From Paraescarpia echinospica (Eukaryota > Annelida > Polychaeta > Sabellida > Siboglinidae): a stretch of 64,000 nt of DNA. The DNA lies in assembly GCA_020002185.1 (NCBI GenBank), contig CM034533.1, forward strand, positions 52,161,568-52,225,567. Reading direction: 5' to 3'. Shown piece after piece: positions 4,348-39,354 of the stretch. The position numbers were made by a program, and so were the translations under genes. Positions within the stretch are counted from its first letter, which is position 1. Every line of letters starts with the position of its first letter. Under the pieces are notes generated by a model. That model saw only the letters and a list, made by a program, of their open reading frames with translations. It was not told where the DNA came from and did no database searches.

Positions 4348-4774
4348 AATGAATTAAATATATCAGATTTGATTCATGGACACAACGAATGTATGCCACC
4401 ATATAAGGTATTGATAAAATCACACCACGGCTGCTGTCCAATTCACATGTTATAGAAAACGAATGCTGTTTAGGTCGAGTTCATCTGCGTACATTCTTTA
4501 TAAGTTGGCTTGTCGCCGCTTGGTGTAATACCTCTTAATGTGTTCCAACGCCCACGTATAAAGTTAAAATGTTGTTCTGGTACAGCGCAGTATCCGGTCT
4601 TTAAGACGGCTCAAGGCGTTTAGTACTTCACCCCTGATAGACCTGTTTAATCGATCACCGTCTTGACTTATTTGAGGAGCAATCAGCCCCCCAGCAATTA
4701 ATGCGCGAAAACTATTCGTTCACAAATATACATCAGTCTCTATAGCCAGGTACTCATTTATAGAGCTTAGTGTA
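4348..4774. repeat. Host left flank copied in inverted orientation inside the right end of Polinton A
   Basis: These 427 bases lie immediately outside the left terminus of Polinton A and reappear as a reverse complement at 19754-20180, between an inner and an outer copy of the right terminal repeat. The second copy of the element (from 56764) lacks the insertion. Confidence 0.85.
4769..4774. repeat. 6-bp target-site duplication, left (AGTGTA)
   Basis: AGTGTA directly precedes the terminus AGTAGATAG at 4775 and recurs directly after the opposite terminus at 20391-20396. Polintons generate 6-bp duplications and their ends start with AG. Confidence 0.85.
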
Positions 4775-5102
4775 AGTAGATAGTAGGCGCTGTACGGTCA
4801 CAAAACCATACTTATAAAAAACTTTTAATGACCACTAAACGATTCGAGCACCCAGCTGACGTCAGCAATAATGCGAGACTAATCCTATGTATAAAAAAAG
4901 ATCAAAGGCTTTGTGTTTGACACTAATGAGTTTGGGAAACCTACTTATAAAAAACGTGATTGATGAGCGATGTAATTTGATACTAATTGGATGATTGACA
5001 GTACCACTAGAGATGCCACCTAGCGGTGAGTGCAGAGAGTATTTTAGTCCTAGCGATCAACGCCGTACCTAGAGCGTGCTGACGTAAGCAATAATGCGTT
5101 TA
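4775..5102 (+). repeat. Left terminal inverted repeat of Polinton A
   Basis: About 328 bp, starting AGTAGATAGTAGGCGC, reverse complement of 19425-19753 and near-identical to 56764-57092. It contains a perfect palindromic CRE (TGACGTCA) at about 4858 and the related GCTGACGTAAGCAATAATGCG at about 5077. Confidence 0.9.
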
Positions 5103-5510
5103 ATAATAAAGTATATAAGTTTTTTTTTTTTTTGATCGACCACCTATAACTGGGGTAGGAGTTGTGCTGACATAGGCAATACGCTAACCACGCTAAAACC
5201 ATTGTATATTAAAACCATTGTATAAACGTTGAGATGTCCCCCTAGAGTGTGCTGACGTAAGCAATAATGCGTTTAATAATAAAGTATATAAGTTTAGTTT
5301 CGTACTTTATTTAATAACCACCACGCTAAAGTATATAAGTTTAGTTTCGTACTTTATAACCACGCTAAAGTATATAAGTTAAGTTTCGTACTTTCGTTTT
5401 TGATCGACCACCTATAACTGGGGTAGGAGTTGTGCTGACGTAGGCAATACGCTAACCACGCTAAAACCATTGTATATTAAAACCATTGTATAAACGTTGA
5501 GATGTCCCCG
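5077..5510. promoter_or_regulatory. Repeated CRE/ATF-like sites and short direct repeats inside the left TIR
   Basis: The block GCTGACGTAAGCAATAATGCG recurs at about 5077 and 5247, with variants GCTGACATAGGCAATACGC (about 5167) and GCTGACGTAGGCAATACGC (about 5432). Between them AAAGTATATAAGTTTAGTTTCG repeats several times. TGACGTAA/TGACGTCA cores are bZIP (CREB/ATF) sites by consensus. Their use here as promoter or replication enhancers is inference. Confidence 0.6.
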
Positions 5511-5781
5511 TTTGTGATGTTGACAGCAAGAGCGACGACCGCTGCTGCTGCAGCGATAAGGCACCGTCGCCGGCTGCTGCTCTAGTGGCCTGTGACCCTT
5601 GGATGACAGCATAGCTGGCTAACGGTAAACAACGTTGTTCTGGTGGACGGATTAAAACGAAACCAATGTACATCTAGTCGTGGGATTACAATGACAATCA
5701 AATGCATAAATACACTAACATTCAGTAGGGTGTTTATGCATTGAAAATAGACGCGTGAAAACGTGAGTAGTGACTGAATAT

Positions 5782-6734
5782 TTATTGTGGCGCTGTATAT
5801 CGATAGGGAGCGCCAACGAGGTGCTCCGGTGGAGAGCCGAAGCCTTGCCGGGGATATAGTTCGGGAGGCGTGATCGTTCTCCATAATCCGTTTGGTTGTT
5901 TTATGAGAAATACTCGCGCCAGATCGGCTATGTCATCATCGTCAGACGAGCTGTAGTCAGGCGTGACATCGGGCGGCGTGGGAGGTGGCGAAGGCGCGCG
6001 GACGGACGGCGCGACCATGCAGGTCGGCTGGGTCGACTGCACCGTCTTGTCGGGCAGTTCGACCGACCTACGAGGCGACGATTCGTCGCTGCTTGTAGGC
6101 AATTGGATCGGTCTATGAAATAAAAGAAATGTTTAAACGAGACAATAAACGATATGCACGCGCTTATAAATAAAATGCATGCATGTTTAAACGGTAAATA
6201 CATGCAATTTAATGCGTACTAGTAAAAACGTGCATTTAAATAAAATGCATGCATGTTTAAACGGTATGTTACAATAGTGCATTTAAATAAAATGCATGTT
6301 TAAACGGTAAAATACATGCAATTTAATGCGTACTACTGTAGTAAAAACGTGCATTTAAATACAACAATAAAAACGTGCATTTAAATAAAATGCATGCATG
6401 TTCACTAGTAAAAACGTGCATTTAAATAAAATGTATGCACACACTTATAAATAAAATGCATGCATGTTTAAACGGTAAAATACATAATGCGTACTAGTAA
6501 ACACGTGCATTTAAATAAAATGCATGCATGTTACAACAATAAAAACGTGCATTTAAATAAAATGCATGCATGTTTAAAATACATGCTATTGCGTATAGTA
6601 AGCACTGTTTAAATAAAATTACAACAATAAAAACGTGCATTTAAATAAAATGCATGCATGTTATTGCGTATAGTAAGCACTGTTTAAATAAAATGTACGC
6701 TGTCTTACCGTCGTGTTGTTGTGGACGTGGCCAT
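5782..6734 (-). CDS. Two-exon early gene A-L: acidic, proline-rich protein (divergent to the RPA-like gene)
   Basis: Exon 1 (6734-6709) begins with ATG, encodes MATSTTTR plus two bases, and ends at a GTAAGA donor. Exon 2 begins at 6112 after a pyrimidine-rich acceptor ending TTTCATAG, and the phases fit (2 to 2). The product is about 118 residues: a Ser/Asp-rich start, a proline block PSPPPTPPD, an acidic SSSDDDD patch and a C-terminal tail with TPPELYPRQGF. It matches no family I know. Polinton B has a spliced gene at the same relative place (41377-42989) with the same intron phase and a similar proline block. I see no LxCxE motif in the A version. The intron is filled by AT-rich repeats, so a middle exon may have been lost. 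Confidence 0.6.
6150..6695. repeat. AT-rich imperfect tandem repeats in the intron of gene A-L
   Basis: At least eight copies of AAAACGTGCATTTAAATAAA followed by ATGCATGCATGTTTAAACGG, in variable order. No coding signal. Confidence 0.85.
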
Positions 6735-6854
6735 GTTAGATGGTGGAACGATGTATGGAGACGTCGTGTGCTCGTGTTTGTAAAAGTGTGTATGAAATGT
6801 GCGCGTCGTCAAACAGCGGCGGCGGCGCATGACACTACGGCTGATTTTGATTGA

Positions 6855-7640
6855 CATGTGAACGGAGAACAAAGGATTTTTACAAACGAACGTTAAAAGC
6901 ACGAAATGAAACGTTCTATACGATCACTGGGGGGTCAGGAAATACGAGATGCATATATATTAGAGAAATTCGCGGTAAAAGTCACATTTGACAATGAATG
7001 CACTGACGTGAACGCTAACTTTTTTCCTAAAACAAATTCCTCGGTAGACTAGGCGGAATGCGTTAAGCGCACATGTGTGACATCTGTTGCGCGTGATTTA
7101 ACGAGTTGGAATGTGAACGGAGAACAATGGAATTTTACAAACGATAAATGAAACGTTAAAAGCGCGAAATAAAACGTATAAGATCGCAGAGGGGTCAGGA
7201 AACACGAGATGCATAGATATCAGAGAAATTCGCTGTAAAAGTCACATTTGACAATGAATGCACTGACGTGAACGCTAACTTTTTTCCGAAAACAAAATGC
7301 CTGGGATGGATGAAGTATGCACGTCGATAATTGAAAAAGATAAGGATATGAGTGTGAAGTGCGCATGCGCGTTATAGTGTAGACAATGACATTTCAAAAA
7401 CAATAAACGAAACGTTAAAAGCACGAAACTAAACGTTGTATATATTCTCTGTGGAGTCAGGAAACGCGAGGTGCATCGATATTAGAGAAAATCGATGTAA
7501 GGAGAGATTTAACGGCGAATGTACTGACGTGACCGGATACTTTTTTCCGAAAACAAAATGTATGAAATGTACGAGGCACGCACGCTGATAATTGAGTAAG
7601 ATGACGTATTAGCGTAAAGTGCGCATGCGTGTTATTTGGA
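6855..7640. promoter_or_regulatory. Three about 260-bp tandem upstream repeats between divergent early genes
   Basis: Units start near 6858, 7113 and 7376. Each contains AACGTTAAAAGC.CGAAA, GGGGTCAGGAAA.ACGAG (third unit: GGAGTCAGGAAACGCGAG), GATGCAT.GATAT (variable), a stretch like CACTGACGTGAACGCTAAC and a CTTTTTTCC element. Nothing codes here. Position between two divergent promoters suggests an enhancer block or replication-linked control region (inference). Confidence 0.65.
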
Positions 7641-7645
7641 AAAGG

Positions 7646-7652
7646 TATAAAA
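7646..7652 (+). promoter_or_regulatory. TATA box of the early RPA-like unit
   Basis: GGTATAAAA lies about 100 bp upstream of the ATG at 7748. A possible acceptor (TTCTAAC...TTTCTACAACAG, ending at about 7713) follows, so the 5' leader may itself be spliced. Confidence 0.6.
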
Positions 7653-7747
7653 CGGTTGTGAAAAAGCTATATTGTATGACGCTGAACTTCTAACGTGTAT
7701 TCTTTCTACAACAGCAGAGCAGCAAGCAGCAGACGTTCTTCCGCAAC

Positions 7748-8500
7748 ATGGCGGATGAAAGTCAACAACAGCCGAAAAAGCCGAAGACGCCGCGGAAGCA
7801 GTCGATGAAGGCGGCCAGCAGCAGTCAACCTTCGGCACTGATTGCAGCCTTGTCAACGGGGGTGTCACCACCCGTTAAGCGGCCCGTTGCGCTCATCGCG
7901 GCCCCGTTGACGGTCGGCCGAAAACGGAGCGCCGAAGAGGCGCACTTGGAGCAGCAGCCCGACGAAACGGCCGAGCAGCCCCCGGTCCTGTCGCGGAGCG
8001 GTTCTACGGAGCGTGAATCGTCGGCGTCGACACGCGCCACAGCGGTGAGTCTGAGACATCTGAAGTGCGCTGTCAACGGTGTGTATAAACTCCTGTTGCC
8101 CGTTACGATCGAGGCCATCTCGTACAAAGGCGAGCCCGGCACCACCTATTTGGGATGTTCCCGTTGTCGCCGGAAATTGCAGACAAGCAAAGACGGGACC
8201 CTGATATGTCGAACGCACGGTGAAGTGTTTGTACCGAAATATTTCTTCGCGTTGCGTGTGATGGTGAAGGACGGCGAGGAGGAAGAAGACGAGCTTTGGC
8301 TTACGTTGTTCGATAGCCAAATGTCTAATCTCGTCGAGTACACGGCCGAGTACTTGACGGAATTGAACGAGGAGGATCTCCGCGATACCGTGCTCGAGTT
8401 AGCCGGTACTAAAGTGGAGATTAGTGTACGGAAGAGGAGTTGGAACGGTGACCCCTCGTATACAGTCCGCACACTAAAAAGATACGTCGACGATGACTAA
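7748..8500 (+). CDS. RPA1 DBD-C-like ssDNA-binding protein (unspliced product of early unit A)
   Basis: 250 residues. Residues 1-99 are a low-complexity leader with basic patches (PKKPKTPRK, GRKRS). Residues 100-250 look like the C-terminal OB domain of replication protein A subunit 1: a zinc ribbon C137-x2-C140-x13-C154-x2-H157, followed by LWLTLFD and a helical EYLTELNEEDL segment at the places expected for the family. In cells this domain binds single-stranded DNA and recruits partners. Here it could coat displaced strands during protein-primed replication (inference). A GTGAGT donor at 8045 splits leader and domain exactly, in phase 0. The same gene with the same donor position exists in Polinton B (40302-40790). 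Confidence 0.75.
   Translation: MADESQQQPKKPKTPRKQSMKAASSSQPSALIAALSTGVSPPVKRPVALIAAPLTVGRKRSAEEAHLEQQPDETAEQPPVLSRSGSTERESSASTRATAVSLRHLKCAVNGVYKLLLPVTIEAISYKGEPGTTYLGCSRCRRKLQTSKDGTLICRTHGEVFVPKYFFALRVMVKDGEEEEDELWLTLFDSQMSNLVEYTAEYLTELNEEDLRDTVLELAGTKVEISVRKRSWNGDPSYTVRTLKRYVDDD
8045..8050 (+). promoter_or_regulatory. Splice donor, phase 0, shared by alternative early exons of A
   Basis: GCG|GTGAGT, a strong 5' splice site, falls after exactly 99 codons counted from the ATG at 7748. Four downstream acceptors each open a phase-0 frame. Confidence 0.65.
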
Positions 8501-8522
8501 TGTTGTCTTGTGTGTTTTGTAG

Positions 8523-8627
8523 GAGGAGGAGGAAAATTGGCCGCTACTGATAGATTTATTGACGCACGCCAACGAACGACAACGAATGAGAGATCGTCGT
8601 GGTCTGGCACTAAGTGCGGAGCTTTGA
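8523..8627 (+). CDS. Alternative early exon A1 (34 codons)
   Basis: Begins directly after an acceptor (GTGTGTTTTGTAG) 20 bases downstream of the RPA-like stop. It reads EEEENWPLLIDLLTHAN and on to a TGA at 8625, and has no suitable start codon of its own at the beginning. Joined to the 99-codon leader it would give about 133 residues. The tail is a short amphipathic helix; function unknown. Confidence 0.5.
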   Translation, partial: EEEENWPLLIDLLTHANERQRMRDRRGLALSAEL

Positions 8628-8651
8628 ACTATTAGCCGAGGCGGCCGAGCA

Positions 8652-8660
8652 GTATATAAG
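8652..8660 (+). promoter_or_regulatory. Internal TATA-like element
   Basis: AGTATATAAGAGCG between alternative exons A1 and A2. It could give a second early promoter, or be chance. Confidence 0.35.
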
Positions 8661-8739
8661 AGCGTTTTGGTTGGCCTACGAAGCGAGCCTATTGTGTAGT
8701 AGTTTGATGTACTAACAGTTGTGCTTTTATATGCTTTAG

Positions 8740-8889
8740 GAAGTGCGCTGTGTGCTGGAAAAAATGCTTGCAAACAACGAAAGGATTTGCGCTCAGTACA
8801 ACGAGGTTGCCTCGTTCGTAAGAACGTTGTTGGAACGGGGTGTGCAGGGGTCGGCGATAAAGAAGGATGAGGACAAGAAGGAGGACTAA
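8740..8889 (+). CDS. Alternative early exon A2 (49 codons)
   Basis: Preceded by a textbook 3' splice site: TACTAAC branch point at about 8710, a pyrimidine-rich tract, then CTTTAG. The phase-0 frame starts EVRCVLEKMLANNER and ends KKDEDKKED before TAA at 8887. It is mostly helical with a charged tail. No family recognised. Confidence 0.55.
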   Translation, partial: EVRCVLEKMLANNERICAQYNEVASFVRTLLERGVQGSAIKKDEDKKED

Positions 8890-8909
8890 TCATAATAATG
8901 TGTTTGTAG

Positions 8910-8990
8910 GACGCTCTGATGCAACACACCAGACGTGAGTGTATGAGTGACTTCCTACACGCGTTGCTGACGGTGATTCGTAAAGAGTAG
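8910..8990 (+). CDS. Alternative early exon A3 (26 codons)
   Basis: Acceptor TGTGTTTGTAG ends at 8909, 20 bases after the A2 stop. The frame reads DALMQHTRRECMSDF to IRKE and TAG at 8988. Short helical tail; function unknown. Confidence 0.45.
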   Translation, partial: DALMQHTRRECMSDFLHALLTVIRKE

Positions 8991-9008
8991 AACTGCTTTG
9001 TGCTGTAG

Positions 9009-9677
9009 GGTAGTGGCGGAGGAGTACGTGACGCTCACGTATTGGAGGCGATCATCGAGGAGGCGCTGGGCTGCTCGAACCGAACGCGCCCCCCTCCACC
9101 GACGTATAACGACAGCCTGGGGACGATGGGACCGACGTGCTCGCCGTACTGGACCGTATCGGAGGAGCTGGGGACGTGTCAACGGCAACTGGTCGTGCCG
9201 AGCCGGAGTCAGTTGGTCGGGCGTTACGAACGACTGGCGATGGATCTCGTCGCCGAGACTCTCGGCGAAATGATTCTGGAGAAGGCTCGGGATCATTGCG
9301 GGGTATGTGAGCCGAATGAAGGCTGTCCCTACGTTCACATGCCCGGCTATCGCGCGGGACGGCCGAATCGGGTATATATGCAACGTTTCGATAATGCGGG
9401 CTGTATTGTGACGCGCTATTTCAACAGCGTCATGGAGACGTTCCTGCGTCGATCGCTCATCCCCTGTTTCACGAGACTAGAGCATATTCTACACGAGACT
9501 ACGGTGTCGACTTCTTCCGGTGAACAGCAGCCGCAAACGGGCCGTGCAGGAGAATTGTATTTGGTGCAGTTTGTGTCGAACTGGTTGTTGGGAACAAATT
9601 GGCGCGATTATATGAATCGTGTGCAACTCGAGTCGGCCGTGCACACGTACGTGCAACGTCGGAGCGGACTGGAATGA
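9009..9677 (+). CDS. Alternative early exon A4: 222-residue Cys-containing protein with PPxY motif
   Basis: Begins after acceptor GCTTTGTGCTGTAG, phase 0, with a Gly-rich start (GSGGGVRD). An acidic helix is followed by PPPPTYND, which holds a PPTY (PPxY) motif of the type that binds WW domains of Nedd4-like ligases. Cysteines cluster at HCGVCEPNEGC. The rest is predicted helical. A TTG at 9042 is the nearest alternative start but is unlikely in a eukaryote, and spliced use explains the lack of ATG. It is the last exon of the early unit and is followed by a poly(A) signal at 9763. No homologous family recognised. Confidence 0.55.
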   Translation, partial: GSGGGVRDAHVLEAIIEEALGCSNRTRPPPPTYNDSLGTMGPTCSPYWTVSEELGTCQRQLVVPSRSQLVGRYERLAMDLVAETLGEMILEKARDHCGVCEPNEGCPYVHMPGYRAGRPNRVYMQRFDNAGCIVTRYFNSVMETFLRRSLIPCFTRLEHILHETTVSTSSGEQQPQTGRAGELYLVQFVSNWLLGTNWRDYMNRVQLESAVHTYVQRRSGLE

Positions 9678-9762
9678 ACGAACACTAGTAGAATAGAGAA
9701 CATTTTATTATTTGCTTGCTATTGAAACAAAGGCTTCACGATTGAATGTTGTAAGAGTACCG

Positions 9763-9768
9763 AATAAA
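9763..9768 (+). terminator. Poly(A) signal of early unit A
   Basis: AATAAA, 86 bases after the stop of exon A4 and ahead of the polymerase promoter. It would serve every early splice form. Confidence 0.6.
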
Positions 9769-9799
9769 ACGTTGAAAATGTACTTTCCGTTTCCGAGTT

Positions 9800-10045
9800 A
9801 CCTAGTTAGAAAAATTACCGCTAGTCGTAAAAACAACCACTAGTACCGCTATTCGTAAAATCCCGCTAGTTACAAAAAATTACCGCACTCCTCAGTTAGA
9901 AAAAACCACCGCCAGTTACCACCACATTCCACCGCTAGTTAGAAAAATTACCGCTACCTAGTTAGAAAAACCGCCACCACCGCTAGTAAGAAAAATCTTC
10001 CCGCTAGGGTGTACTTACCACCACCACCACCACCACCGTCACCGT
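9800..10045. repeat. CCGCTAGTTAGAAAAA-type short repeats and (CCA)n upstream of polymerase A
   Basis: About ten degenerate copies of CCGCTAGTTAGAAAAATTA, then a (CCA)n run (about 10018-10037) and GTCACCGTCG. Polinton B has a matching (CCA)n plus TCACC stretch just upstream of its polymerase TATA box. Confidence 0.75.
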
Positions 10046-10051
10046 CGCCGT

Positions 10052-10059
10052 TATAAATA
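10052..10059 (+). promoter_or_regulatory. TATA box of polymerase gene A
   Basis: TATAAATA, 31 bp upstream of the ATG at 10090, implying a very short leader. Confidence 0.6.
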
Positions 10060-10089
10060 GCGACGTTCGAAAAAATATCATTACAGAGA

Positions 10090-12177
10090 ATGCCACTTAC
10101 TAGATGGCAATGTCCGAAATGCGGGCGCTATTTCGCGACGCAGTCGACGTTAGAACGACACGTAAAGAGTTCGAAAAGTTGCGGCGACGAAGCGCTATGC
10201 GTAAAACGTCGAGAGTGTCCAAAATGTGGCACGCTATTCACCACGCGTCACGCTATGCTACGACATCTGAGGCTGCAGTGTGGCCGTTCGCCACCTCCTA
10301 GTAATGAATCAGTGGCGTAGGCGGCAGCCGCTAGGGCGCCGTCGCCCGACGATCTACAGCGTGTCGTAGACGAGCACCGGCGTAGCATAGAGACGTCGGT
10401 GGCGCGCGGCGTCATACAGTCGCGTTACAACTATCGTATGACCGCCTGTACGATTATGCGCGTGCTCGAACCGCGTCTGAGGGAAATGTTTCGCGCGCAA
10501 AAGAACGCGATTAAAATTAACGTAAGCTATGGTTTTGTATTACGCCACAAGGTGTCGGGTCGGTACCGATATTTTCATTCTTCGTGTAACTGTTGCGGTC
10601 GCCTCCTCGAAACACCCGCCCTAGTTACCGATAGCCGTTCATTCGAACGATTCCTCGACGCCGTGCGCACTACCGACGTACTGCAGTACGCCATCGCGCA
10701 GCGTCCCGACTCGGGATGGATCGTCGAGCTCGTAACTAACGCCACCTACTTCGTGAACGTCATCATCAATCATCCTATCGGCTGCGTTGGCGTGACGACG
10801 CTTCCCGCCTACGTGCGCCTCAACAGGTCCATCGTGTCGTTGACGAACGATCATCAAGGCACGCCCTACGACGACCATCTGTGTCTCTTCCGATGCATCG
10901 GCCTTCACCTGCAAGGTCACCGACGAGGCGAAAGTGGTCGCCACATCGATACGAACCGTTTAACGAAAGACGCTAAACGTCTGTACGCGCGGTATTGTCG
11001 CGCCGCGCGCACGTCGACTTCGAACGGCGGCGGCGGCGTGCGCCTGAACGAATTGGATCGCGTGGAGACGGTTTTCGGCATCAACGTCGTCGTCTATCAT
11101 CGACTGACGAACGACGTCGCCGAACTAGTCCGTCGATCGTGCGAAGCGCACCCCACGACGCTGAACGTCAACTTGTACGAGTCGCACTTCTCGTACATAA
11201 GCGATCCGCGCGCGTACACGAAAACGTACAAGTGCGGGAAATGCGGCAACGTCCTCTGGCGGAATGCGCACGATTTATGACGTCACGAAGCGACGTGCGA
11301 AGGCGGTGTTCGTCACGTGTTCCCCGGCGGCGTCTACCGACCGACGGCGTCCGTATTCGAGCGGCTCGACGACGAAGGCATCGACGTCGGCGACGACGAC
11401 CTGCGCTACTACCCGTACCGCGCGACGTTGGATTTCGAGTGCTATTTCGCCGATAACGATCTGACAACGGATAGCGACAAATGCCGCTGGATCGCGCGAC
11501 ACGAACTGCTCAGCGTGAGCGTCACGTCGAACGTGCCCGGTCACGAAGCGGCGCGCTGTTAAGTCACGACCGGCGATTCGTCGGAACTCGCGCGTCGCCT
11601 CATCGACGACCTGGAAGCGGTGAGCGCGGCGGCGTGCGCGATTCTACGTCCCCGCTACCACGCGACCTTCGAAGCGCTCGACGCCGACTGGCGGCGACGA
11701 CGATGCGACGACGACGCCGACGCGTCACCGTACGCCACTCTCGCCGACCGTCTGTGGACGTACCTTCGTCAAATGCCCGTATTGGGATTCAATTCGGGTA
11801 AGTACGACCTGAACGTCATCAAAAAGTACTTGACCCCCCTGCTCATAACCGACGACGCGCAGCACACGTCGTCGGCGTTTACCATTAAACGTCAGAACAA
11901 TTACATGTGCCTGTCGACGACGACATTGAAGTTCCTGGACATAACGAATTACCTCGCGCCCGGCGTTAGCTACGATCGCTTTCTGAAAGCGTACGGTTGC
12001 TCGGCAACGAAGGGCTACTTTCCGTACGAGCACATCGACGCGCTGACACGTCTGGACGAAACCGCCCTGCCGTCGCGCGAAGCTTTCTACAGCCAGCTGA
12101 AACGCGAGGGAATCTCCGCGGAGGCGTACGAGATTTGCGCGACGGCGTGGCGCGACGAGGGCATGACGTCGATGCGC
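10090..12177 (+). pseudogene. Protein-primed DNA polymerase B, N-terminal part, with three in-frame stops
   Basis: Collinear with residues 1-735 of polymerase B (34155-38177). It starts with two C2H2 fingers (CPKCGRYF, CPKCGTLF). The NCCGR and KCGKCGN cysteine pairs follow, then exonuclease motif I (YRATLDFEC) and motif II (FNSGKYDLNV). It stays in one frame throughout but meets TAG at 10318, TGA at 11278 and TAA at 11560. At about 12177 polymerase sequence ends inside TAWRDEGMTSMR and passes directly into the C-terminal half of the capsid gene. The palm motifs A-C are absent. No frameshift was seen across the 2.1 kb before the junction. The family makes new element DNA from a terminal protein primer. 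This copy cannot. Confidence 0.88.
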
Positions 12178-12786
12178 GTCGTGCTGCAGGCGATTCGACT
12201 GCACGTGCGAAAAGTGAAGTTGAACCCGGCCGTACAGATGGGACATATCAAAGCGTGGGGGTTGGGAACGGCTAAGTTTCCGATGCGCCGCGTCGAATGC
12301 AAATCGTTCTCGATAACGGCGGGTACGCTATCGCACACACACGAGAACCTGTACATGGGCGCGATTCCGAAACGCCTCTTCCTGATGATGATCGATAACG
12401 TCGCCTACAACGGCGACTACACTAGAAATCCGTTCGACGCGCGTCACAACGACATAAACTTCCTGACGCTCGTCGTCGACGGACGTCAGGTGCCGAGCAA
12501 GCCGCTGCAGCCGGACTTCCTTCCCGCACAACCGGTACGTGCGGAGCTACATGAATCTCTTCGAGGCGACCGGAAAGGCATTCGAGGACGAGGGGAACGA
12601 CGTATCGCGCACGGACTTCGGCGCCGGCTACAGCATCTTCGGTTTCGACCTGACCCCCGACTGTTGCGACGGCGACCATTTCAACGTCGTGCGTCAGGGG
12701 AGTGTGGGCGTCGAAATGCATTTCGGGACGCCGCTACCGCTTCCGGTGAACGTCGTCGTGTACGCGGAATTCGAGACGGTGACACC
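12178..12786 (+). pseudogene. Major capsid protein, C-terminal half, misplaced behind polymerase A
   Basis: Capsid sequence from IRLHVRKVKLNP through NVVVYAEFE. It resembles the invertebrate F54H12.2-like family, which sits beside transposon-derived integrases in Polintons and is the likely double jelly-roll major capsid. A frameshift near 12530 moves the reading frame. The intact order of N- and C-terminal halves is seen at 63733 in the second copy, where the sequence runs continuously. Here the half lies on the opposite strand to its N-terminal partner (12787-13438), so a fold-back rearrangement split the gene. Confidence 0.75.
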
Positions 12787-13438
12787 CCGGTACGGCTTGC
12801 GCGCCCATGATCGAGAAGGCGTCCTTCGAGCGCACTATGCGCACTTTCGTGTCGACGCCGTTCGGTAGGTGTATGTTTAGTATAAACGCGTCGATGTGCA
12901 GGCGTCCCATCATCTCCACCTCGTTGCTATCGGCCGTTGCGAGGCGTCGCGCCTCGAAACCGTCGTTGGCGTTGCCGAGCGTGTCCATCCGTCCGGCGGT
13001 GTCTTTGTACCACAACGAACCCGTGAGATGCGAACGTTTCGCGTCGCTACCGTAACATAGCAACGTCTCGAGGTAGGCCCGGTACGCGTACGTATTGGTC
13101 GACGGTGTCACGAGGGTGTTGTTCAGCGACACGTCGATTTGAATGATCATCGAATGCAGGAAATTGTTGACCGGCGCCACCGTGGCGGCCGCCGCCAGAT
13201 CGGTACCGTCCCCCCGCGTCACTTTGAAGCGCACGTACAGTTGAACGCTCCCCAGGTCCGTATAGTCTTCGCCCGAACCCGGCACGAGGAACTCGATAGG
13301 GCCGCCGGCGTCGAGAGTCGTCAGCGGCTGGTAGACGGTCCAATGACTACTCTCGATGCTCGTCTGCGTCACCGGTCCGCTGAACAGCTCCAGTTCGGCC
13401 TTCACGCCCTCGCACGTCGAGCCGTTCACGAACGCCAT
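12787..13438 (-). pseudogene. Major capsid protein, N-terminal half, truncated by inversion
   Basis: Starts at ATG 13438 (MAFVNGSTCEGVKAEL) and reads open through SIMGAQAVPG, then meets inverted capsid C-terminal DNA at about 12787. Strand-rich segments such as WTVYQPLTTL, VQLYVRFKV and VNNFLHSMI match the front of F54H12.2-like capsid proteins. The true C-terminal half lies on the plus strand to its left. The frame beyond the junction (CHRLEFRVHDD) is antisense capsid DNA. Confidence 0.75.
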
Positions 13439-13439
13439 C

Positions 13440-13754
13440 GTTGTCGTCCGTTCGACGTCTTCCGCCTACTGACTACCGTCGCCGCTAGGCGCGTCCTCTT
13501 TATGCCGCTACCGCCGCGGCGTCGTCGGTGCGTTTTTTTCTTCCGTAGGCGCTGTACGTATTGGTCGACGCGTCGAGTTGACTGAATATCGTATGCAGGA
13601 AATTGTTGACCGGCGCCACCGCGGCGGCGGCCGTCAGATCGGTATCTCCTCCGCGCGGCGTCACCACTATGAAGCGCACGTACACTCGAAGGTCCGTATA
13701 GCCCGAACCCGGCTGGTAGACGGTCCACTGACCGTTCTCGAGTGCGCGCTCCAT
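13440..13754 (-). pseudogene. Shortened chimeric duplicate: mini capsid N-terminus plus pX tail
   Basis: An 84-codon frame (13754-13500) keeps only blocks of the capsid start: NGQWTVYQP, GSGYTDL, VYVRF, VAPVNNFLH and STNTY, with the pieces between them deleted. DNA after it, in another frame, repeats the KRTRLAATVVSRRK tail of the neighbouring pX-like gene. The same duplicate stands at 62801-63120 in the other copy, so it predates the large inverted duplication. It may be a recombination scar or a transcribed small protein; I favour the scar. Confidence 0.6.
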
Positions 13755-13759
13755 CGTCG

Positions 13760-14203
13760 TTACTCGTCGAATATGTCCGTTCGACGCGCTCTTTTCCGCC
13801 TACTGACGGCCGTCGCCGCTAAGCGCGCTCTCTTTACGCCTACGTCGCCGCCGCGGGGACGGCGCTGCTGCGTTTGTTTCTTTCTCTTCTTCTTTGGTGC
13901 CTGCGGATTCAATAGGTCGTCGAGAAGATCGGCGCCGGCCTCCTTCGCGCGCCTTTTTAGCGACTGTTTCAGATTGCCGCCGGCGACGACGTCGCGCGCC
14001 ACGTGCATGCCGGTGTTGAGCGCTCGTTTTCCCAAAGCCATCGCGCCCCTCTTGATAAGCGGCATGGCGCTTCGAAACAGACTCCCGAAGAGATTACCCA
14101 GACCGTGACCTCGTTGACCCCGAGCGCCGACGAAGACAGGCAGCTGTCCGCCGACCTGACGAACGTAGTAGTCCACGTACGGGTTCTTCGACGACGGCGG
14201 CAT
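13760..14203 (-). CDS. pX/pVI-like basic virion core protein
   Basis: 147 residues. The glycine-rich stretch GHGLGNLFGSLFRSAMPLIKRGA forms an amphipathic helix. It is followed by GKRALNTGMHVARDVVAGG and a strongly basic tail (PKKKRKKQTQQRR, KRARLAATAVSRRKRARR). Polintons and adintoviruses carry such a protein beside the capsid genes, compared with adenovirus pX/pVI, where basic and amphipathic parts bind DNA and disrupt membranes. It begins one base after the minor capsid stop, so the two share a transcript. The other copy (62352-62795) is nearly identical. Confidence 0.65.
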   Translation of the reverse strand: MPPSSKNPYVDYYVRQVGGQLPVFVGARGQRGHGLGNLFGSLFRSAMPLIKRGAMALGKRALNTGMHVARDVVAGGNLKQSLKRRAKEAGADLLDDLLNPQAPKKKRKKQTQQRRPRGGDVGVKRARLAATAVSRRKRARRTDIFDE

Positions 14204-14204
14204 G

Positions 14205-15083
14205 TTAAAACAATTTCGATTTACAGTGTCTGAAGTGAAGCGTCGTCACCACCTTCCCCTGCTCAAATGGTATCGGTTGGCTGTGATCGTCTCTTATATC
14301 GACTTCGACCTCGTCGAATTGATTCCGTAGCAGCTTCACGTATTGCACGCGATCGAACGTCTCCGAAATAACGTCACCGTTCTCACCGCGGACGGCGATG
14401 TTTCGAAGGAGCGGCGCGTACACGTCACCGACGAAGCGCGGTTACACGAGATCCGTGTACACGTACAGACTCTCGATGCCCGCCGACATGCTCACCGTAT
14501 CGCGACCTTCGTACTCGAACGTGTACGCGGCGATCGACGTGCTGATGACGGGCATCGTCGCCGGCGCGGGACCGTACGCCGACAAACTCATGATCGTGTT
14601 GCTATGGAAACCTAGCATGTGCCTCAGACGGCTCGAATGAGGTATGATAAATTCGACACCCGCCGACATACGTAGCGTAAATCGGTTAGAGACGGCGCAG
14701 TATTCTAGCACGGCCTTGACCTTCCTGGTGTGTAATTTCTCTAGCGCCTCGTTGATCCTGTTCAACAACGTATAAACGTTGTTGTAGAAACCGTGAGGAA
14801 TCGTCGTCTGACGATATATCAGCACGGTCGTGCCGTCTTTGTCTATCTGCGTGTAAACACCCGGTTCGCCCGCCGCGCAAGAGAGATAGAAGTAGGCGTC
14901 CTTCTCTCTCACGTTGTACCACGTGTGCGGATACTGTACCGACACCGCGCCGCATTCCCACTCCCCCGACAGGTCGAAACGTCGCGGCAACGTCTTGACG
15001 TATTGCGTCAACGTATTTTCGGGGTGACGTTTCATAGACGCGTTGCTTGGCAGCGTCAGGTAAAAATCAGACGAGACCGCCAT
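14205..15083 (-). pseudogene. Minor capsid (penton-like) protein, interrupted by TAA
   Basis: Starts at ATG 15083 (MAVSSDFYLTLPSNASM) and ends FRHCKSKLF. It is a strand-rich protein of about 292 residues found in Polintons next to the pX-like gene. I infer the single jelly-roll minor capsid, by size and neighbours. A TAA at 14442 cuts it at about residue 213. The copy at 61472-62350 has a GAA at that site and is open throughout. The start overlaps the end of the upstream membrane protein gene by 17 bases. Confidence 0.65.
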
Positions 15084-15426
15084 CGCGTCGTCGACGTTCG
15101 CCGCCGCCGACACTTATAGACGGACTCGGGAGCAGGTAACCGAGACAGCTGCTCAACAGCGCCGTCCACAGGTTGGAGTCCCCTTGACCTTTCGTCAGAT
15201 TGTATATACTAACGGCGATGACGAAGTACAGGACGACGACCTGACAGAGGAAAAAGATTTCGGCCTTAGGGCATTCGTTGCCGCAGATTCGCCATGGAAC
15301 GGGTTCGGCGGCAGTTGTTGTTGTAGCGTCGATGGAGTCCGCGTTGTGCTCGTCGTCGACGACGGACGATTCGTCGGCGTTCGTTCGACGCTCGCCACTC
15401 GAGGTAGTTTCGTCGTCGTCGCACAT
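15067..15426 (-). CDS. Single-pass membrane protein, 119 aa
   Basis: An acidic N-terminal region (about 1-50) precedes WRICGNECPKAEI. A hydrophobic segment FFLCQVVVLYFVIAVSIYNL follows, then GDSNLWTALLSSCLGYLLPSP. The last block is typical of small membrane proteins carried by many Polintons. The role is unknown; virion membrane or entry helper is possible. It lies between integrase and minor capsid and is present with few changes at 61129-61488. Confidence 0.6.
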   Translation of the reverse strand: MCDDDETTSSGERRTNADESSVVDDEHNADSIDATTTTAAEPVPWRICGNECPKAEIFFLCQVVVLYFVIAVSIYNLTKGQGDSNLWTALLSSCLGYLLPSPSISVGGGERRRRDGGLV

Positions 15427-15547
15427 CGTCGCGCCACTGCGCGCTGTCGATGCAGCAGGGACCTTTATACGGTAAGAACGAAGATCCGTTGCATAGTCCC
15501 GCCTCGTGCAGTCGCCAGCAGCCGGTGTGACGCGTCCAACGATTCAT
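15266..15547 (-). CDS. Possible overlapping Cys/Trp-rich small protein (93 aa)
   Basis: An ATG at 15547 overlaps the integrase stop as ATGA. The frame runs MNRWTRHTGCWRLHEAGLC to PYKGPCC and then becomes Arg-rich, overlapping the membrane protein gene in another frame. The first 50 residues have a plausible Cys/Trp pattern and are unchanged in the other copy (61008-61289). The Arg-rich end may be a shadow of the overlapped gene. Unknown function. Confidence 0.35.
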   Translation of the reverse strand: MNRWTRHTGCWRLHEAGLCNGSSFLPYKGPCCIDSAQWRDDVRRRRNYLEWRASNERRRIVRRRRRAQRGLHRRYNNNCRRTRSMANLRQRMP

Positions 15548-16575
15548 AGGTCCACGAGCGACTCGGCGTCGATCCAGCTGTTGAATGAGGCCGGATATCC
15601 GCTCCATTTTACGAGCGCCTCCGAACCGCCGCCACGACGCCGACGACACCGTAGAACCGCCACCACGCGATATAGTTTGTCTTTCGGAACGACTACGCGT
15701 TGTAGTTCCGGTTCGTAGAAGGTACCCTCTATCGGCGTCTCGGCGTCGTCCTTCAGGCGATAAACGGGCGGTTCGGACGGGTGCACCTCTACGACGGTGA
15801 ACAGCTCCTCGCTCCAGTTAGCCATGTATCCTTTTTTGAAATGACCCCTCGTCTTGCTGATACGTACGCGATCTCCCACGCGTAGTTTCGGTTTTCGTCG
15901 TTCGACGTCGCCGCCACCACCCCCGTACAGTCGTTGCCATACGGCCTCCTGATTCGTCGCGTCGACACTCGCCGGCGTTATACCGATGCTTCGGTGGTAG
16001 GCGTTGTTGTACGATCGCACGAAATCCGGTAACGCCTCTACGTAGCGCAGCGTTTCGTGTTTCGTAAAATAGCGCCACATACGCGTCTTCAAAGTTCGAT
16101 TAAACCGTTCCACGACGCTCGCTTTGGTCTCCTCGTTATGCGTCACGAAATGATGAACGCCGCGACTCTTTAGCAACGTTTGCAGGGGTCGGTTCAAAAA
16201 CTCGCTCCCCTTATCGGTCTGCAGCGTGTGCGGCGTCTCGTCGTCGTCGTCGTTCAGCAGGCGCTCGAAGGCCGCGACGAGCGACGCTCCGGACTTATTC
16301 TTCAACGGAACGCACCACGCCCGCTTCGAAAACACATCGATCACCGTCAATAGGAATGTTATACCGTCGTTGTGCGTTTTCAGTCTAGTCAAGTCGACCA
16401 GATCAGCTTGCCACTGCTGGTTTCGACCGCCCACGATGACGCGACGTCGTTTGAAATGACGTCTAACCGGTTTGTGTAGGGTATAGGCGTCCTGCGACGC
16501 TAGCCACCTCTCGACGGCCGGACGTCGGAGCTTCGACGCCCGGTGCAACGCGTCGATGCCTCCGTAACTCCCCAC
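15544..16575 (-). CDS. Polinton integrase with DDE catalytic core and C-terminal chromodomain
   Basis: 343 residues. WQADLVDLTR gives the first Asp, LQTDKGSEF the second, and SVVERFNR the Glu, 34 residues after the second Asp. An HKPVRRHFKRRR segment lies before the core. The SH3-like part (LRVGDRVRISK) follows it. The end YRVVAVLR...ALVKWSGYPASFNSWI is a chromodomain that may steer insertion to chromatin. The frame is open in this copy. The apparent start is GTG directly after a stop, while the second copy keeps upstream coding (YFDPKR), so the true N-terminus is probably damaged or on another exon. It inserts element DNA, producing the 6-bp duplications seen at the ends. Confidence 0.88.
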   Translation of the reverse strand: MGSYGGIDALHRASKLRRPAVERWLASQDAYTLHKPVRRHFKRRRVIVGGRNQQWQADLVDLTRLKTHNDGITFLLTVIDVFSKRAWCVPLKNKSGASLVAAFERLLNDDDDETPHTLQTDKGSEFLNRPLQTLLKSRGVHHFVTHNEETKASVVERFNRTLKTRMWRYFTKHETLRYVEALPDFVRSYNNAYHRSIGITPASVDATNQEAVWQRLYGGGGGDVERRKPKLRVGDRVRISKTRGHFKKGYMANWSEELFTVVEVHPSEPPVYRLKDDAETPIEGTFYEPELQRVVVPKDKLYRVVAVLRCRRRRGGGSEALVKWSGYPASFNSWIDAESLVDL

Positions 16576-16591
16576 CAGTTATACGCGTTAT

Positions 16592-16777
16592 TCAGCTCGT
16601 CGTCTTCGACGTCGACGTTTCGTTGCTGTCGAGGCTTTCGTTTTGGACGACGACGACTCCACCCGGACACCATGACGACGACGACGACGATGATGATACG
16701 ATGATATAGATTGCGATAAGCGCGATGGTGAAGCCGACGACGACGACGACGATGATGATCGCGCGTCGTGACGTCAT
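16592..16777 (-). CDS. Small membrane glycoprotein, 61 aa
   Basis: From ATG 16777: MTSRRAIIIVVVVVGFTIAL, a single membrane segment, a serine run, WCPGG and an external-type tail with sequons NES and NET. Polinton B has a counterpart (33565-33729) with the same order: basic start, membrane segment, SSC.GG, sequons NVT and NAT. In A it lies next to the integrase; in B next to the ATPase. Function unknown. Confidence 0.55.
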   Translation of the reverse strand: MTSRRAIIIVVVVVGFTIALIAIYIIVSSSSSSSSWCPGGVVVVQNESLDSNETSTSKTTS

Positions 16778-16878
16778 CACGACAACGTATCCCACGCCGT
16801 GACGCTCAACGAAGAGGATCGACGTCTCCGCTCAGTCGGCGCTGCTGATGAACTAGACGTCGACGGCATCGTCATCCT

Positions 16879-17520
16879 CTATTCTAGTAGCTGCTTCCGT
16901 CGTCGCTCCATGTACGAACGATAGCGCGGGTTGCCTACGAATTCCATAGGGATATTCATATCCTTCATGTGCAATCCGAACTCCCGCCATCCTACGGGCG
17001 CCGTCGTCTTCGATTTCGCTCGCATGAGATCGTTTACTAGATCGACCATATTACTCCCCGCGATCGCTTTACCGTCGTACACGAATTCACCGCGATCGTT
17101 CCATCGAGACAACGGATCGGCTTTCATTTTTTCGATCAGCAGTCTCGTCTTCTCTTTCAACGTTTTCGGCATACTGACTACGATTTCGCGCTCTATCACC
17201 TCCGACGATGGTGGCGCCACCGCCGCCGCCGCTGCTGGCGCCACCGGTACCGCGGGTGTCTCGCCGCTGTTCACCACCGACACGCGTACCGGTTGCGCCG
17301 CTCGAGCCGCCTCTATCGTATTGTACCGACTCAGCAGTTGATTGTACGACGCTACCTTTTCTCGTTCCGATAAATCCGAACGTTCTAGAATGTCCTTCAT
17401 GTCGCTGTCAAGGCTACTCAGCACACGTGATCGAGGCGTGCTCGACGACTGATCGACGCGTGGCAGAAGGCTTTCCACCAATCGTGGATCGACCAACGCC
17501 ATCTTCTTCGCGTACTGCAT
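16879..17520 (-). CDS. Conserved Polinton protein, 213 aa
   Basis: Starts at ATG 17520, overlapping the preceding stop by one base. The N-terminus MQYAKKMALVDPRLVESL and the C-terminal block WNDRGEFVYDGKAIAGSNMVDLVNDL...GWREFGLHMK...IPMEFVGN recur in Polinton B (32463-31684, disrupted). An Ala/Pro linker separates the two blocks. It is widespread in Polintons but of unknown role. Its position between the 136-aa gene and the glycoprotein suggests a virion or assembly part. Confidence 0.6.
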   Translation of the reverse strand: MQYAKKMALVDPRLVESLLPRVDQSSSTPRSRVLSSLDSDMKDILERSDLSEREKVASYNQLLSRYNTIEAARAAQPVRVSVVNSGETPAVPVAPAAAAAVAPPSSEVIEREIVVSMPKTLKEKTRLLIEKMKADPLSRWNDRGEFVYDGKAIAGSNMVDLVNDLMRAKSKTTAPVGWREFGLHMKDMNIPMEFVGNPRYRSYMERRRKQLLE

Positions 17521-17930
17521 CAATTACCGCCGGCGCCGCCGAACACCTGTCTGAGCAGCAGGAAGATAACGGTACTCGCTAACGGCGCTAGCAGGGCCGT
17601 CAGAAAACCACCCGCACCCTTTTGCAAGATGACACGCTTCTGCTTACGCGTGACGTGTTTGTCGACGAGTTTACGCAGGTGATCCCGGTATTTCGACAAT
17701 ACGCGTTTCTGTTTCGGCGACAACTTCACGTTCCCTTTCAGAATGTTGTACGCGCAATCGCACAGACTACAAATGAGACCGGTGTCCGCGTGGGCGAGTA
17801 GGGCTTTTCGCAGAGCGATGTTCCGCCTATGTCTCTCCAACAGCTGCAGGGCGACGATGTGTCTCTTTATTTGATTCGTTGGTCCCGCCACCTTCGGCCG
17901 TCTCTTCGCTCCCGTCACGCGCGCCTTCAT
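17520..17930 (-). CDS. Conserved Polinton protein, 136 aa, helical with hydrophobic C-terminus
   Basis: ATG 17930 (MKARVTGAKRR). Helices with the block AYNILKGNVKLSPKQKRVLSKYRDHLRKL precede GGFLTALLAPLASTVIFLLL, a glycine-led hydrophobic helix that could insert in membranes. The counterpart in B is 32476-32898. The longer upstream frame to 18053 is Arg/Trp-rich antisense to the ATPase tail and is not coding. Function unknown; a membrane-active minor virion protein is an inference. Confidence 0.6.
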   Translation of the reverse strand: MKARVTGAKRRPKVAGPTNQIKRHIVALQLLERHRRNIALRKALLAHADTGLICSLCDCAYNILKGNVKLSPKQKRVLSKYRDHLRKLVDKHVTRKQKRVILQKGAGGFLTALLAPLASTVIFLLLRQVFGGAGGN

Positions 17931-17971
17931 AGCGACTAATAAACGGACGCGTCGTCGTCTCTCTCTTCTTA

Positions 17972-18625
17972 TAGTCCGCCGACGCCACCACCACCACCGC
18001 CGCCACCCTTCCGTACGTATACGTACTGAAGGCGATCGTACGGAAATATGCACGTAAGCAGACGCATATCCTCTTCCGTTTCCTGTTTCAGATCCACGAA
18101 TAGTTACCCGTACGCCGACGACGTCGCGTCTTTGAAAACCTCTATCATGTAATTGACCTTTCCCGGGTACATCTGTTTCGCTAGGTGACCTACTTGACCC
18201 GCGTCTCGAGGACTCTTGAATAGCACTATGTATTGAGCGTTCAGGCTGATTGTACGGTTTTCTTTCCCTTTCGGAAACATGTTCTGTCGCAATTGTACGA
18301 CCGACGTATTACAATGATGACTTTTTTTAGTAAATAGTACCGTCACCCGACTATCGGTCTCCTCCATGAGGTCGTCGAGTACTAGAAGCGTTCTCGCTTT
18401 ACCGTCTAAACGTTTCGGATCCGGCAGGCCGTCTACGAACTCTATTTTCGAAGACATAGACGCGTAGCCGCTCTGCCACTGTCCGTAACACCACAGGATT
18501 TTCTCCGGCGGCGGATCGATCATAGTATCGTAACGTATCAAACGCTCGACGAACGTCGTCTTACCGCATCCCGTAGGACCGGCTACTATACACGTAAAAG
18601 GATGCTTCAACGACGGTCCGTTCAT
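17972..18625 (-). pseudogene. A32-like packaging ATPase, truncated by TAA at 18104
   Basis: Starts at ATG 18625. Walker A is GPTGCGKTTF (about residues 16-25) and Walker B is LLVLDDLMEE. An NxxxQ-like sensor stretch lies at LNAQYIVLF. These are marks of the HerA/FtsK-type ATPase that pumps element DNA into capsids. A TAA at 18104 stops it after SSAYG, about 45 codons short of the copy at 57889-58545, and homology continues to about 17972. One substitution (VVQLRQN against VVQLLQN) also differs. Confidence 0.85.
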
Positions 18626-18653
18626 TTTTCACGACTGAACGACGAACACTTTT

Positions 18654-19106
18654 TTACTCGTTTTTATACTCATCGCGCAACTCCATCAACAGTTTACCGA
18701 GCATGTTCTTCCCCACATCGCCCGCGATTCCGCTACCCCAGAAACCCTTCTTACTCGCTATCCATTCCACCAATTCGGCGTCCCCGGTCGCCAACAGTGC
18801 AGCCTTCAAATCGCTCGATCCGTTAAACTTCCTCCTCAACAACATCCTCATACATTTCACCCTAACGTCGGTCCATTTGTTTCTCATTCTCTTTAGTCGA
18901 ATGTCGTAACTGCGTCGTTTCGCTGCATAAGAGCTTCGCGAACTTTTGATTATTTCGGCACATTCCACGTCCTCGTAGAATATCGCTTTCCTATACTGAT
19001 AGGCGTGCTCGACGGATCGAAAGCCCCGACCGAACGCCGACAGTCGACGGATATACATATTCGACAAGAACGACCGCGATCCACCAAACCTTATAGGCGA
19101 CGACAT
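18654..19106 (-). CDS. NADAR-family protein (ADP-ribose glycosidase superfamily)
   Basis: 150 residues with the NADAR/YbiA pattern in order: FGGSRSFLSNMY, SVEHAYQYRKA, the AAKRRSYDIR region, KWTDVRVKCMRMLLRRKF, LLATGDAELVEW, FWGSGIAGDVGKNMLGKLLMELR. YbiA acts on riboflavin-pathway intermediates, and other NADAR proteins remove ADP-ribose from guanine in DNA. It is the first gene of the late cluster, with a TATA box 35-42 bp upstream, and is intact in both copies (57411-57863). That both copies stay open while their neighbours decay fits a useful protein. The substrate cannot be read from sequence. An antiviral-evasion or DNA-repair role is speculation. Confidence 0.8.
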   Translation of the reverse strand: MSSPIRFGGSRSFLSNMYIRRLSAFGRGFRSVEHAYQYRKAIFYEDVECAEIIKSSRSSYAAKRRSYDIRLKRMRNKWTDVRVKCMRMLLRRKFNGSSDLKAALLATGDAELVEWIASKKGFWGSGIAGDVGKNMLGKLLMELRDEYKNE

Positions 19107-19140
19107 CGTACCGACTACAGATCACCCGCTACCGTCACCG

Positions 19141-19148
19141 CTTATATA
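19141..19148 (-). promoter_or_regulatory. TATA box of the late cluster (NADAR gene)
   Basis: TATATAAG on the minus strand, about 35 bp upstream of the ATG at 19106, identical in the second copy (57369-57376). Confidence 0.6.
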
Positions 19149-19164
19149 CCAACACTAAAAAGTT

Positions 19165-19235
19165 GCGACTAGGGTTCAAACCCGGAACCTTTCGATCCCT
19201 AGGCGAACACTCTCCTAAGAGAGCTATACCGTCGC
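19165..19235 (-). tRNA. tRNA-like gene, degenerate (proline AGG-like anticodon loop)
   Basis: The minus strand folds with acceptor-like GCGACGG against TAGTCGC (one mismatch here; the other copy at 57282-57352 pairs fully with one G-U). It has A-box-like TAGCTCTCTTAGG, anticodon loop CTAGGGA on a TTCG/CGAA stem, and B-box-like GGTTTGAACCC, followed by CTTTTT, a Pol III stop. Two extra bases before the D arm and an imperfect T arm make it non-standard. Anticodon AGG would read CCU. It could be a pseudo-tRNA or a tRNA-derived Pol III promoter. Confidence 0.5.
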
Positions 19236-19239
19236 CAAC

Positions 19240-19424
19240 GACTATGCAGGGTTTTACCCCGGTTATATCACACCGCTAGGTGGCATCTCGAATTTTACCC
19301 CGGTTATATCTCACCGCTAGGTGGCATCTCGAATCTACAAACGCATTATTGCTTACGTCAGCGTTGAGGACTACGTTAAAAGTACGAAACTAAACGTTGC
19401 ATGGTTTTAGCTTGGTTAGCGCGA
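19240..19424. repeat. Short direct repeats inside the right TIR
   Basis: TTTTACCCCGGTTATATCTCACCGCTAGGTGGCATCTCG-type units occur twice (about 19252-19333), next to GACGTAAGCAATAATGCG-type CRE-like blocks. Confidence 0.7.
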
Positions 19425-19753
19425 TAAACGCATTATTGCTTACGTCAGCACGCTCTAGGTACGGCGTTGATCGCTAGGACTAAAATACTCTCTGCACTCA
19501 CCGCTAGGTGGCATCTCTAGTGGTACTGTCAATCATCCAATTAGTATCAAATTACATCGCTCATCAATCACGTTTTTTATAAGTAGGTTTCCCAAACTCA
19601 TTAGTGTCAAACAAAAAGCCTTTGATCTTTTTTTATACATAGGATTAGTCTCGCATTATTGCTGACGTCAGCTGGGTGCTCGAATCGTTTAGTGGTCATT
19701 AAAACGTTTTTTATAAGTATGGTTTTGTGACCGTACAGCGCCTACTATCTACT
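19425..19753 (-). repeat. Right terminal inverted repeat of Polinton A, inner copy
   Basis: Reverse complement of 4775-5102, ending CTACTATCTACT at 19753. It is followed by an inverted copy of the left host flank and then by a second partial terminal repeat. Confidence 0.9.
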
Positions 19754-20180
19754 TACACTAAGCTCTATAAATGAGTACCTGGCTATAGAGACTGATGTAT
19801 GTTTGTGAACGAATAGTTTTCGCGCATTAATTGCTGGGGGGCTGATTGCTCCTCAAATAAGTCAAGACGGTGATCGATTAAACAGGTCTATCAGGGGTGA
19901 AGTACTAAACGCCTTGAGCCGTCTTAAAGACCGGATACTGCGCTGTACCAGAACAACATTTTAACTTTATACGTGGGCGTTGGAACACATTAAGAGGTAT
20001 TACACCAAGCGGCGACAAGCCAACTTATAAAGAATGTACGCAGATGAACTCGACCTAAACAGCATTCGTTTTCTATAACATGTGAATTGGACAGCAGCCG
20101 TGGTGTGATTTTATCAATACCTTATATGGTGGCATACATTCGTTGTGTCCATGAATCAAATCTGATATATTTAATTCATT
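19754..20180 (-). repeat. Inverted copy of the left flanking DNA (4348-4774)
   Basis: 427 bases matching the left host flank as reverse complement. The second copy of the element lacks it, so it arose after the arm duplication by template switching or recombination between terminal repeats (inference). Confidence 0.85.
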
Positions 20181-20181
20181 C

Positions 20182-23466: not shown

Positions 23467-23520
<54 letters not shown>

Positions 23521-39338: not shown

Positions 39339-39354
39339 CTAATTCACCGTCATC
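39241..39354 (-). CDS. Alternative early exon B2: short acidic tail (37 codons)
   Basis: Follows a strong acceptor (TTGTTCTTTTTTATTGTG then TTTAATAG) at 39355. Phase 0 frame DDGELGRIRRVYTDDNDD and on to TAA at 39241. It overlaps the start of exon B3 in another frame; the two acceptors lie 16 bases apart. Confidence 0.45.
   Translation of the reverse strand, partial: DDGELGRIRRVYTDDNDDTDDDDDVDTQKHITWAPKK

Follow-up and report, generated by a model that had tools for sequence, protein, structure and literature searches.

Behind the gene for an RPA-like protein in a Polinton of the annelid Paraescarpia echinospica lie several open reading frames that do not begin with ATG, and the locus raises the question of how such frames could be translated. 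We analysed it within a window of 64,000 nucleotides (nt) of forward-strand sequence (GCA_020002185.1, CM034533.1, 52,161,568-52,225,567). The provirus that carries these frames is referred to as element 1, and a second, divergent Polinton in the window as element 2. We put at about 0.75 the probability, judged from the sequence, that retention of an intron in element 1 yields the RPA-like protein and that splicing to alternative acceptors yields proteins with its start in common (tails 1-4 being their differing remainders). A first-pass annotation had proposed this plan of one donor, phase-matched acceptors, and an RPA-like protein made from the kept intron, and both the sequence and its comparison with relatives supported this part of the proposal.

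Candidate splice sites and reading frames of the unit

The positions and phases of the candidate sites can be read directly from the DNA (Table 1). The donor that closes exon 1 lies, as first annotated, after exactly 99 codons; with a generic splice-site matrix it ranked first among the 164 GT dinucleotides in 7600-9770 and third among 1136 on the forward strand of 4400-20300. No other GTRAGT occurs in the 5562 nt of element-1 coding sequence that were examined, and the donor stands ten residues ahead of the first RPA-domain residue that can be aligned with element 2. The four acceptors proposed earlier (exon starts 8523, 8740, 8910, and 9009) were recovered with ranks 1, 2, 6, and 3 among 104 AG dinucleotides in 8060-9700, and all open frames in phase 0, of 34, 49, 26, and 222 codons, that run to stops and match the donor. 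Stops precede these acceptors by 22, 112, 20, and 18 nt, where 18-21 nt had been given for three of the four. Because the tail frames do not begin with ATG, exon 1 would lend them a start codon and a leader; the earlier remark that ATG is missing holds for the frame starts, although internal ATGs occur in all four tails.

In the proposed mechanism, a single TATA box upstream and a single poly(A) signal, the sole AATAAA in 7600-9800, would serve the whole unit and give one transcript. If the intron were kept, an RPA-like single-strand DNA-binding protein would be made; alternatively, the donor just ahead of the RPA domain would be joined to one of several downstream acceptors of the same phase. 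The spliced products would have a common start and a different remainder, and the choice of acceptor would set their ratio. The leader would comprise 99 basic residues in element 1, which could direct the tails to the nucleus, and 19 residues in element 2; because the common part of element 2 is just 19 residues, its main service may be to supply the start codon. Splicing itself, the branch points, and the translation of tails 1-3 are predictions from sequence, and the likeliest guess, by analogy, is that the tails would act as early accessory proteins.

The layout of the unit is compact, and at most junctions a product's stop would lie within the branch-like site that belongs to the acceptor following it. 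At three of the four element-1 junctions, and in a related contig described below, the preceding stop coincides with the TAA in a branch-like CTAAY. The candidate branch-point A residues lie 21-25 nt upstream of exon starts 8523, 8740, and 8910; the last of them, at -21, belongs to the CTAAT that contains the stop of tail 2 (TAA 8887), and the perfect TACTAAC noted in the first-pass annotation indeed precedes 8740. Acceptor 9009 does not follow this rule, as its preceding stop, 18 nt upstream, is TAG. CTAAY occurs 153 times in the 64-kb window, both strands counted, and each occurrence was checked for two things: that it closes a frame of 30 codons or more, and that an acceptor scoring 1 or higher follows 12-29 nt downstream. 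Five sites matched, of which three are consecutive in the element-1 unit; the remaining two are equal in frame length, gap, and score and open just three codons.

The observation itself is correct and goes beyond chance. In 5000 dinucleotide shuffles of 8501-9008, none yielded a series of three units equal in quality to the observed ones under strict cut-offs (an acceptor score of 1.2 or more and 26 or more phase-0 codons), which were chosen post hoc with the data already seen. Lowering the cut-off to 20 codons again gave 0/5000, and a score of 0 with 20 codons gave 9/5000 with three or more units. With training on 2823 codons from element-1 frames and the related contig, a codon score gave +37.4 bits over the 109 phase-0 codons of tails 1-3; the two remaining forward frames had -8.4 and -35.4. 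The phase-0 value was attained by 0/5000 base shuffles without in-frame stops.

Within tail 1 the coding signal shifts from phase 0 to the +1 frame, in which it runs to TAA 8713. The frame of tail 1 has therefore probably been disrupted in this copy, and a disruption would account for the 112-nt gap before 8740. We also considered whether the tails are duplicates of one another, comparing tails 1-3, the +1-frame piece, and the start of tail 4, and rejected this idea: the best pair, the +1-frame piece against tail 4, was reached by 60/1000 shuffles, and all other pairs gave no lower figure.

A tubeworm-associated contig and a second Polinton

Tail 4 and the RPA-like protein were the two queries searched against a large protein set, in which no relatives of the RPA-like protein were found. 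Tail 4 matched P0001 (88% identity over 80% of the query), P0002 (58% over 98%), and P0003 (46% over 65%). P0003 comes from contig QGON01000007.1 (L001; 3450 nt), which is filed in a metagenome-assembled genome of a bacterial endosymbiont of the tubeworm Escarpia laminata and probably derives from tubeworm host DNA carrying Polinton genes.

Tail 4 and its acceptor are conserved in L001. This contig begins within an RPA-like gene (17 identities in 39 aligned residues) whose stop TAA lies in CTAAC; 23 nt later follows a TAG acceptor, then the tail-4 homologue, and downstream of it a zinc-finger polymerase frame. The acceptor, at position 199, ranks first among the 42 AGs scanned, and one of the four CTAAY sites in the contig fits the pattern of a stop in CTAAY followed by an acceptor. 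The homologue is open in the same phase from the first exon base for 271 codons, of which the first 111 contain no ATG; codon 112 is the first ATG, and the P0003 database entry begins with codon 135. Similarity between the part of tail 4 ahead of its first ATG and P0002 was matched by 0/5000 shuffles. The corresponding figure against L001 was 24/5000 (18/5000 for the first 22 residues), and that for P0002 against L001 was 36/5000.

Element 2 was located through a search with the RPA domain of element 1; the RPA domains of the two elements are identical at 34 of 140 aligned positions (24%; BLASTP E=3e-10). It has a matching donor, placed two residues ahead of the first aligned RPA-domain residue; only two GTRAGT occur in 5424 nt of its coding sequence examined, one of them being this donor at 40733. 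Two phase-0 frames, tails A and B, lie downstream (Table 1). Codon signal amounts to 0.16 bits per codon in tail A, 0.18 in the RPA gene past the donor, and a weak 0.11 in tail B. The order RPA gene, tails, polymerase is common to element 1, element 2, and L001. No similarity was seen between tails 4 and A; therefore, it is the plan that recurs and not the tails. A further element-2 frame of 212 amino acids (39338-38703) was rejected as coding on account of its negative codon score. By eye, tail A (39431-40249, reverse strand) seemingly consists of two similar halves, each with TIPRV..LR..GI.L.

Table 1. Positions of the features in the window (tails, exons, and splice sites as proposed; phase relative to the donor).
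Feature	Position	Strand	Details
Element 1, Polinton/adintovirus-like provirus	4348..20180		terminal inverted repeats 4348-5102 and 19425-20180
Proposed splice unit of element 1	7646-9768	+	TATA box to poly(A) signal
TATAAAA, likely promoter of the unit	7646..7652	+	~95 nt upstream of ATG
Exon 1, proposed common N-terminus	7748..8044	+	99 codons, basic, isoelectric point 9.9
RPA-like protein, predicted product of the retained intron	7748..8500	+	250 amino acids; Rep_fac-A_C PF08646 E=1.3e-8
Donor GCG/GTGAGT	8045..8050	+	phase 0, exactly 99 codons after ATG 7748
CTAAT, RPA stop inside branch-like site	8497..8501	+	TAA 8498; A at -23 from acceptor 8523
Tail 1	8523..8627	+	phase 0, 34 codons and stop
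+1-frame piece with coding signal	8614..8715	+	33 codons, ends at TAA of TACTAAC
TACTAAC branch-like site with +1-frame stop	8710..8716	+	A at -25 from acceptor 8740
Tail 2	8740..8889	+	phase 0, 49 codons; TAA within CTAAT
Tail 3	8910..8990	+	phase 0, 26 codons
Tail 4	9009..9677	+	phase 0, 222 codons; conserved CxxC-x5-CPxVH core
AATAAA, likely common poly(A) signal	9763..9768	+	downstream of tail 4
Element 2, divergent Polinton	34155-40790	-	
Element-2 zinc finger and DNA polymerase B frame	34155..38276	-	1373 amino acids, unbroken; PF03175 1.9e-8
Element-2 AATAAA	38525..38530	-	sole copy in unit 40950-38450
Element-2 tail B	39241..39354	-	37 codons, phase 0; acceptor 39354 best of 143
Element-2 tail A	39428..40249	-	273 codons, phase 0, from first base past TAG acceptor
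Element-2 RPA-like gene	40302..40790	-	162 amino acids; PF08646 E=4.8e-11; ATG 40790
Element-2 donor ACG/GTAAGT	40728..40733	-	phase 0, after 19 codons; ranked 2 among 201 GTs
Element-2 exon 1	40790-40734	-	19 codons

Competing explanations and known systems

Several observations weigh against alternative splicing from a common exon. The splice-site matrix was generic and not trained on Paraescarpia echinospica. Exon 1 is not in L001, so that conservation of donor and acceptor is not seen together outside the window. In the comparison of tail 4 with L001 ahead of the first ATG, out-of-frame controls stood at 34 vs 42, and codon signal in this part of L001 is close to nil, at 0.03 bits per codon. 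One antisense frame of tail 1 scores 8.7 vs 8.0 for the sense frame. In element 2, the acceptor at 40249 scores poorly (13th of 143), the gaps between stop and following exon measure 52 and 73 nt as against some 20, neither of the two stops was detected in the CTAAY scan, and the strongest of 201 donor-like sites (AAG/GTAAGG, 39747) is inside tail A in another phase. Further points on the same side are taken up with the rival that each would favour.

Of the alternatives, the one that survives best, which we nevertheless consider unlikely, is that the tail-4 junction alone is real, tails 1-3 being decayed exons or left over from other genes. L001 has one acceptor of this type, not four, and its RPA gene is followed directly by tail 4, tails 1-3 not being found in this contig. 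In the two-query protein search tail 4 alone had relatives, tail 1 appears frame-disrupted, and element 1 has decayed elsewhere. The first-pass reading of all four tails as products probably does not hold for tail 1 in this copy and finds no counterpart in L001 for tails 1-3. However, tails 1-3 retain their phase-0 codon signal, each has an acceptor 18-24 nt past its stop (tail 1 by way of the +1 stop), two of their three stops lie inside CTAAY, and the series was not reproduced by shuffles.

A less probable explanation, for which we see little room, is that the downstream frames are ordinary genes with their own internal ATGs, expressed from promoters within the unit or behind a non-coding leader, and that the phase match is incidental. 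The first internal ATGs of tails 1-4 are at codons 22, 9, 4, and 40, the last of which (9126) could yield a product of 183 amino acids, and in element 2 codon 8 of tail A is an ATG. For P0001 the start is an ATG near that at 9126 and for P0002 a methionine close to the tail start, which could reflect separate starts or a mere choice of the gene caller. TATA-like sites are also present within the element-1 unit (TATAAA 8084 and TATATAA 8653); as internal promoters both were set aside as unproven, 8653 lying inside a frame with coding signal. Against separate starts, sequence is conserved upstream of the first tail-4 ATG, the L001 homologue runs for its first 111 codons without any ATG, and the phase-0 GTRAGT ahead of the RPA domain in both elements would be left unexplained. 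That a GC-rich, stop-poor region with some pyrimidine-rich AGs merely mimics a unit is hardly credible: splice signals are short and were picked after looking, but the shuffle test, the codon signal, the CTAAY scan, L001, and element 2 all speak to the contrary.

Alternative splicing from a common exon, the explanation that we favour, had been likened in the first-pass annotation to polyomavirus T antigens, which have a common first exon and are alternatively spliced to different C-termini. The likeness lies in the common first exon and the differing C-termini; the unspliced product here is RPA-like, and among tails 1-4 Pfam identified no helicase. At E values up to 10 Pfam likewise gave nothing for exon 1, and a DnaJ (J) domain was therefore not found in it.

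The closest analogue is instead adenovirus E1B; the unit would work like it without being a member of that system. In the excerpted account of E1B (PMC9663300), one donor in the E1B-496R frame is joined to three acceptors, giving proteins with a common 79 N-terminal residues (496R, 156R, 93R, and 84R). As in E1B, the candidate donor of element 1 falls within the reading frame that encodes the unspliced protein, with putative alternative acceptors downstream. In contrast, the full-length protein of element 1 is RPA-like, with PF08646 as its sole Pfam match and no E1B-55K homology, and Pfam gave no E1B homology for exon 1 or tails 1-4. E1B-156R, according to the same excerpt, re-enters the 496R frame, whereas the element-1 tails are separate frames. 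Adenoviruses and adintoviruses have been grouped in a broader polinton-like assemblage in the portion of PMC11071296 consulted, which mentions for adintoviruses a possible frameshift to alternate Penton ends and no RPA-gene splice hub. Cryptophyte Polinton-like viruses possess introns, yet these are group I self-splicing introns and not spliceosomal alternative acceptors, as far as the extract of that report goes (PMC12220804). The literature searched, represented by partial texts and in part not concerned with Polintons, contains no description of alternative splicing of this kind in Polintons, which is no proof of absence.

A wider reading, tentative and rather doubtful, is that animal Polintons generally use the RPA-like gene as a splice hub, at which accessory exon cassettes are gained and lost like plug-ins. 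A cassette might then consist of an acceptor, a frame, and a stop fused to the next branch site, with the first RPA codons as leader, and the arrangement could be the Polinton counterpart, perhaps the forerunner, of the adenovirus early-region plan. Annotation mostly presents Polintons as plain ATG-to-stop gene sets. If accessory genes do rely on a common spliced exon, gene callers would miss or truncate them (compare the start of P0003 at codon 135), many small early proteins might await discovery, and adenovirus-style alternative splicing would extend to a wider group of elements.

Gene content and surroundings of the two elements

Element 1 resembles adintoviruses and Polintons, as outlined in the excerpt of PMC11071296, in its rve integrase with chromodomain, packaging ATPase, PolB, and inverted repeats. 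Its integrase (15547-16578) matches rve (PF00665, 2.2e-13) and a C-terminal chromodomain (PF00385, 1.7e-6), and its A32/IVa2-like packaging ATPase matches PF04665 (5.4e-6) and PF02456 (1.1e-5). The inverted arms are 100% identical over 479 nt and 99% identical over 287 nt; no target duplication of 6 bp was seen by eye at the ends, the right one of which is partly duplicated. The DNA polymerase region (10057-12868) is broken into several frames, as compared with a single frame in L001. Its piece 10321-11277 has 57% identity to the L001 polymerase region, and the frame 11563-12807 matches PF03175 weakly (E=0.2). A double jelly-roll capsid protein was sought in the capsid region, where the two short frames 12737-13438 and 14445-15083 have no Pfam match. 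With its split polymerase and short capsid-region frames, element 1 is a partly decayed copy.

Element 2 is flanked by very large inverted repeats (22014-30661 and 43673-55137), 86-100% complementary and 99-100% for the longest (among the 25 of 98 pairs listed), which represent either a giant palindrome or an assembly artefact.

Pfam gave no match for any of tails 1-4. PPxY motifs are often bound by WW-domain proteins, and one such motif is located upstream of the tail-4 core (9096-9107); it is also present in P0002 and L001, P0001 and P0003 being too short to include it. A repeat of ~260 nt in three tandem copies (6889-7602) lies immediately upstream of the proposed splice unit and is possibly a control sequence. 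Element 1 also carries a NADAR gene on the reverse strand (18654-19106; PF08719, 2.6e-24), which adjoins the packaging ATPase.

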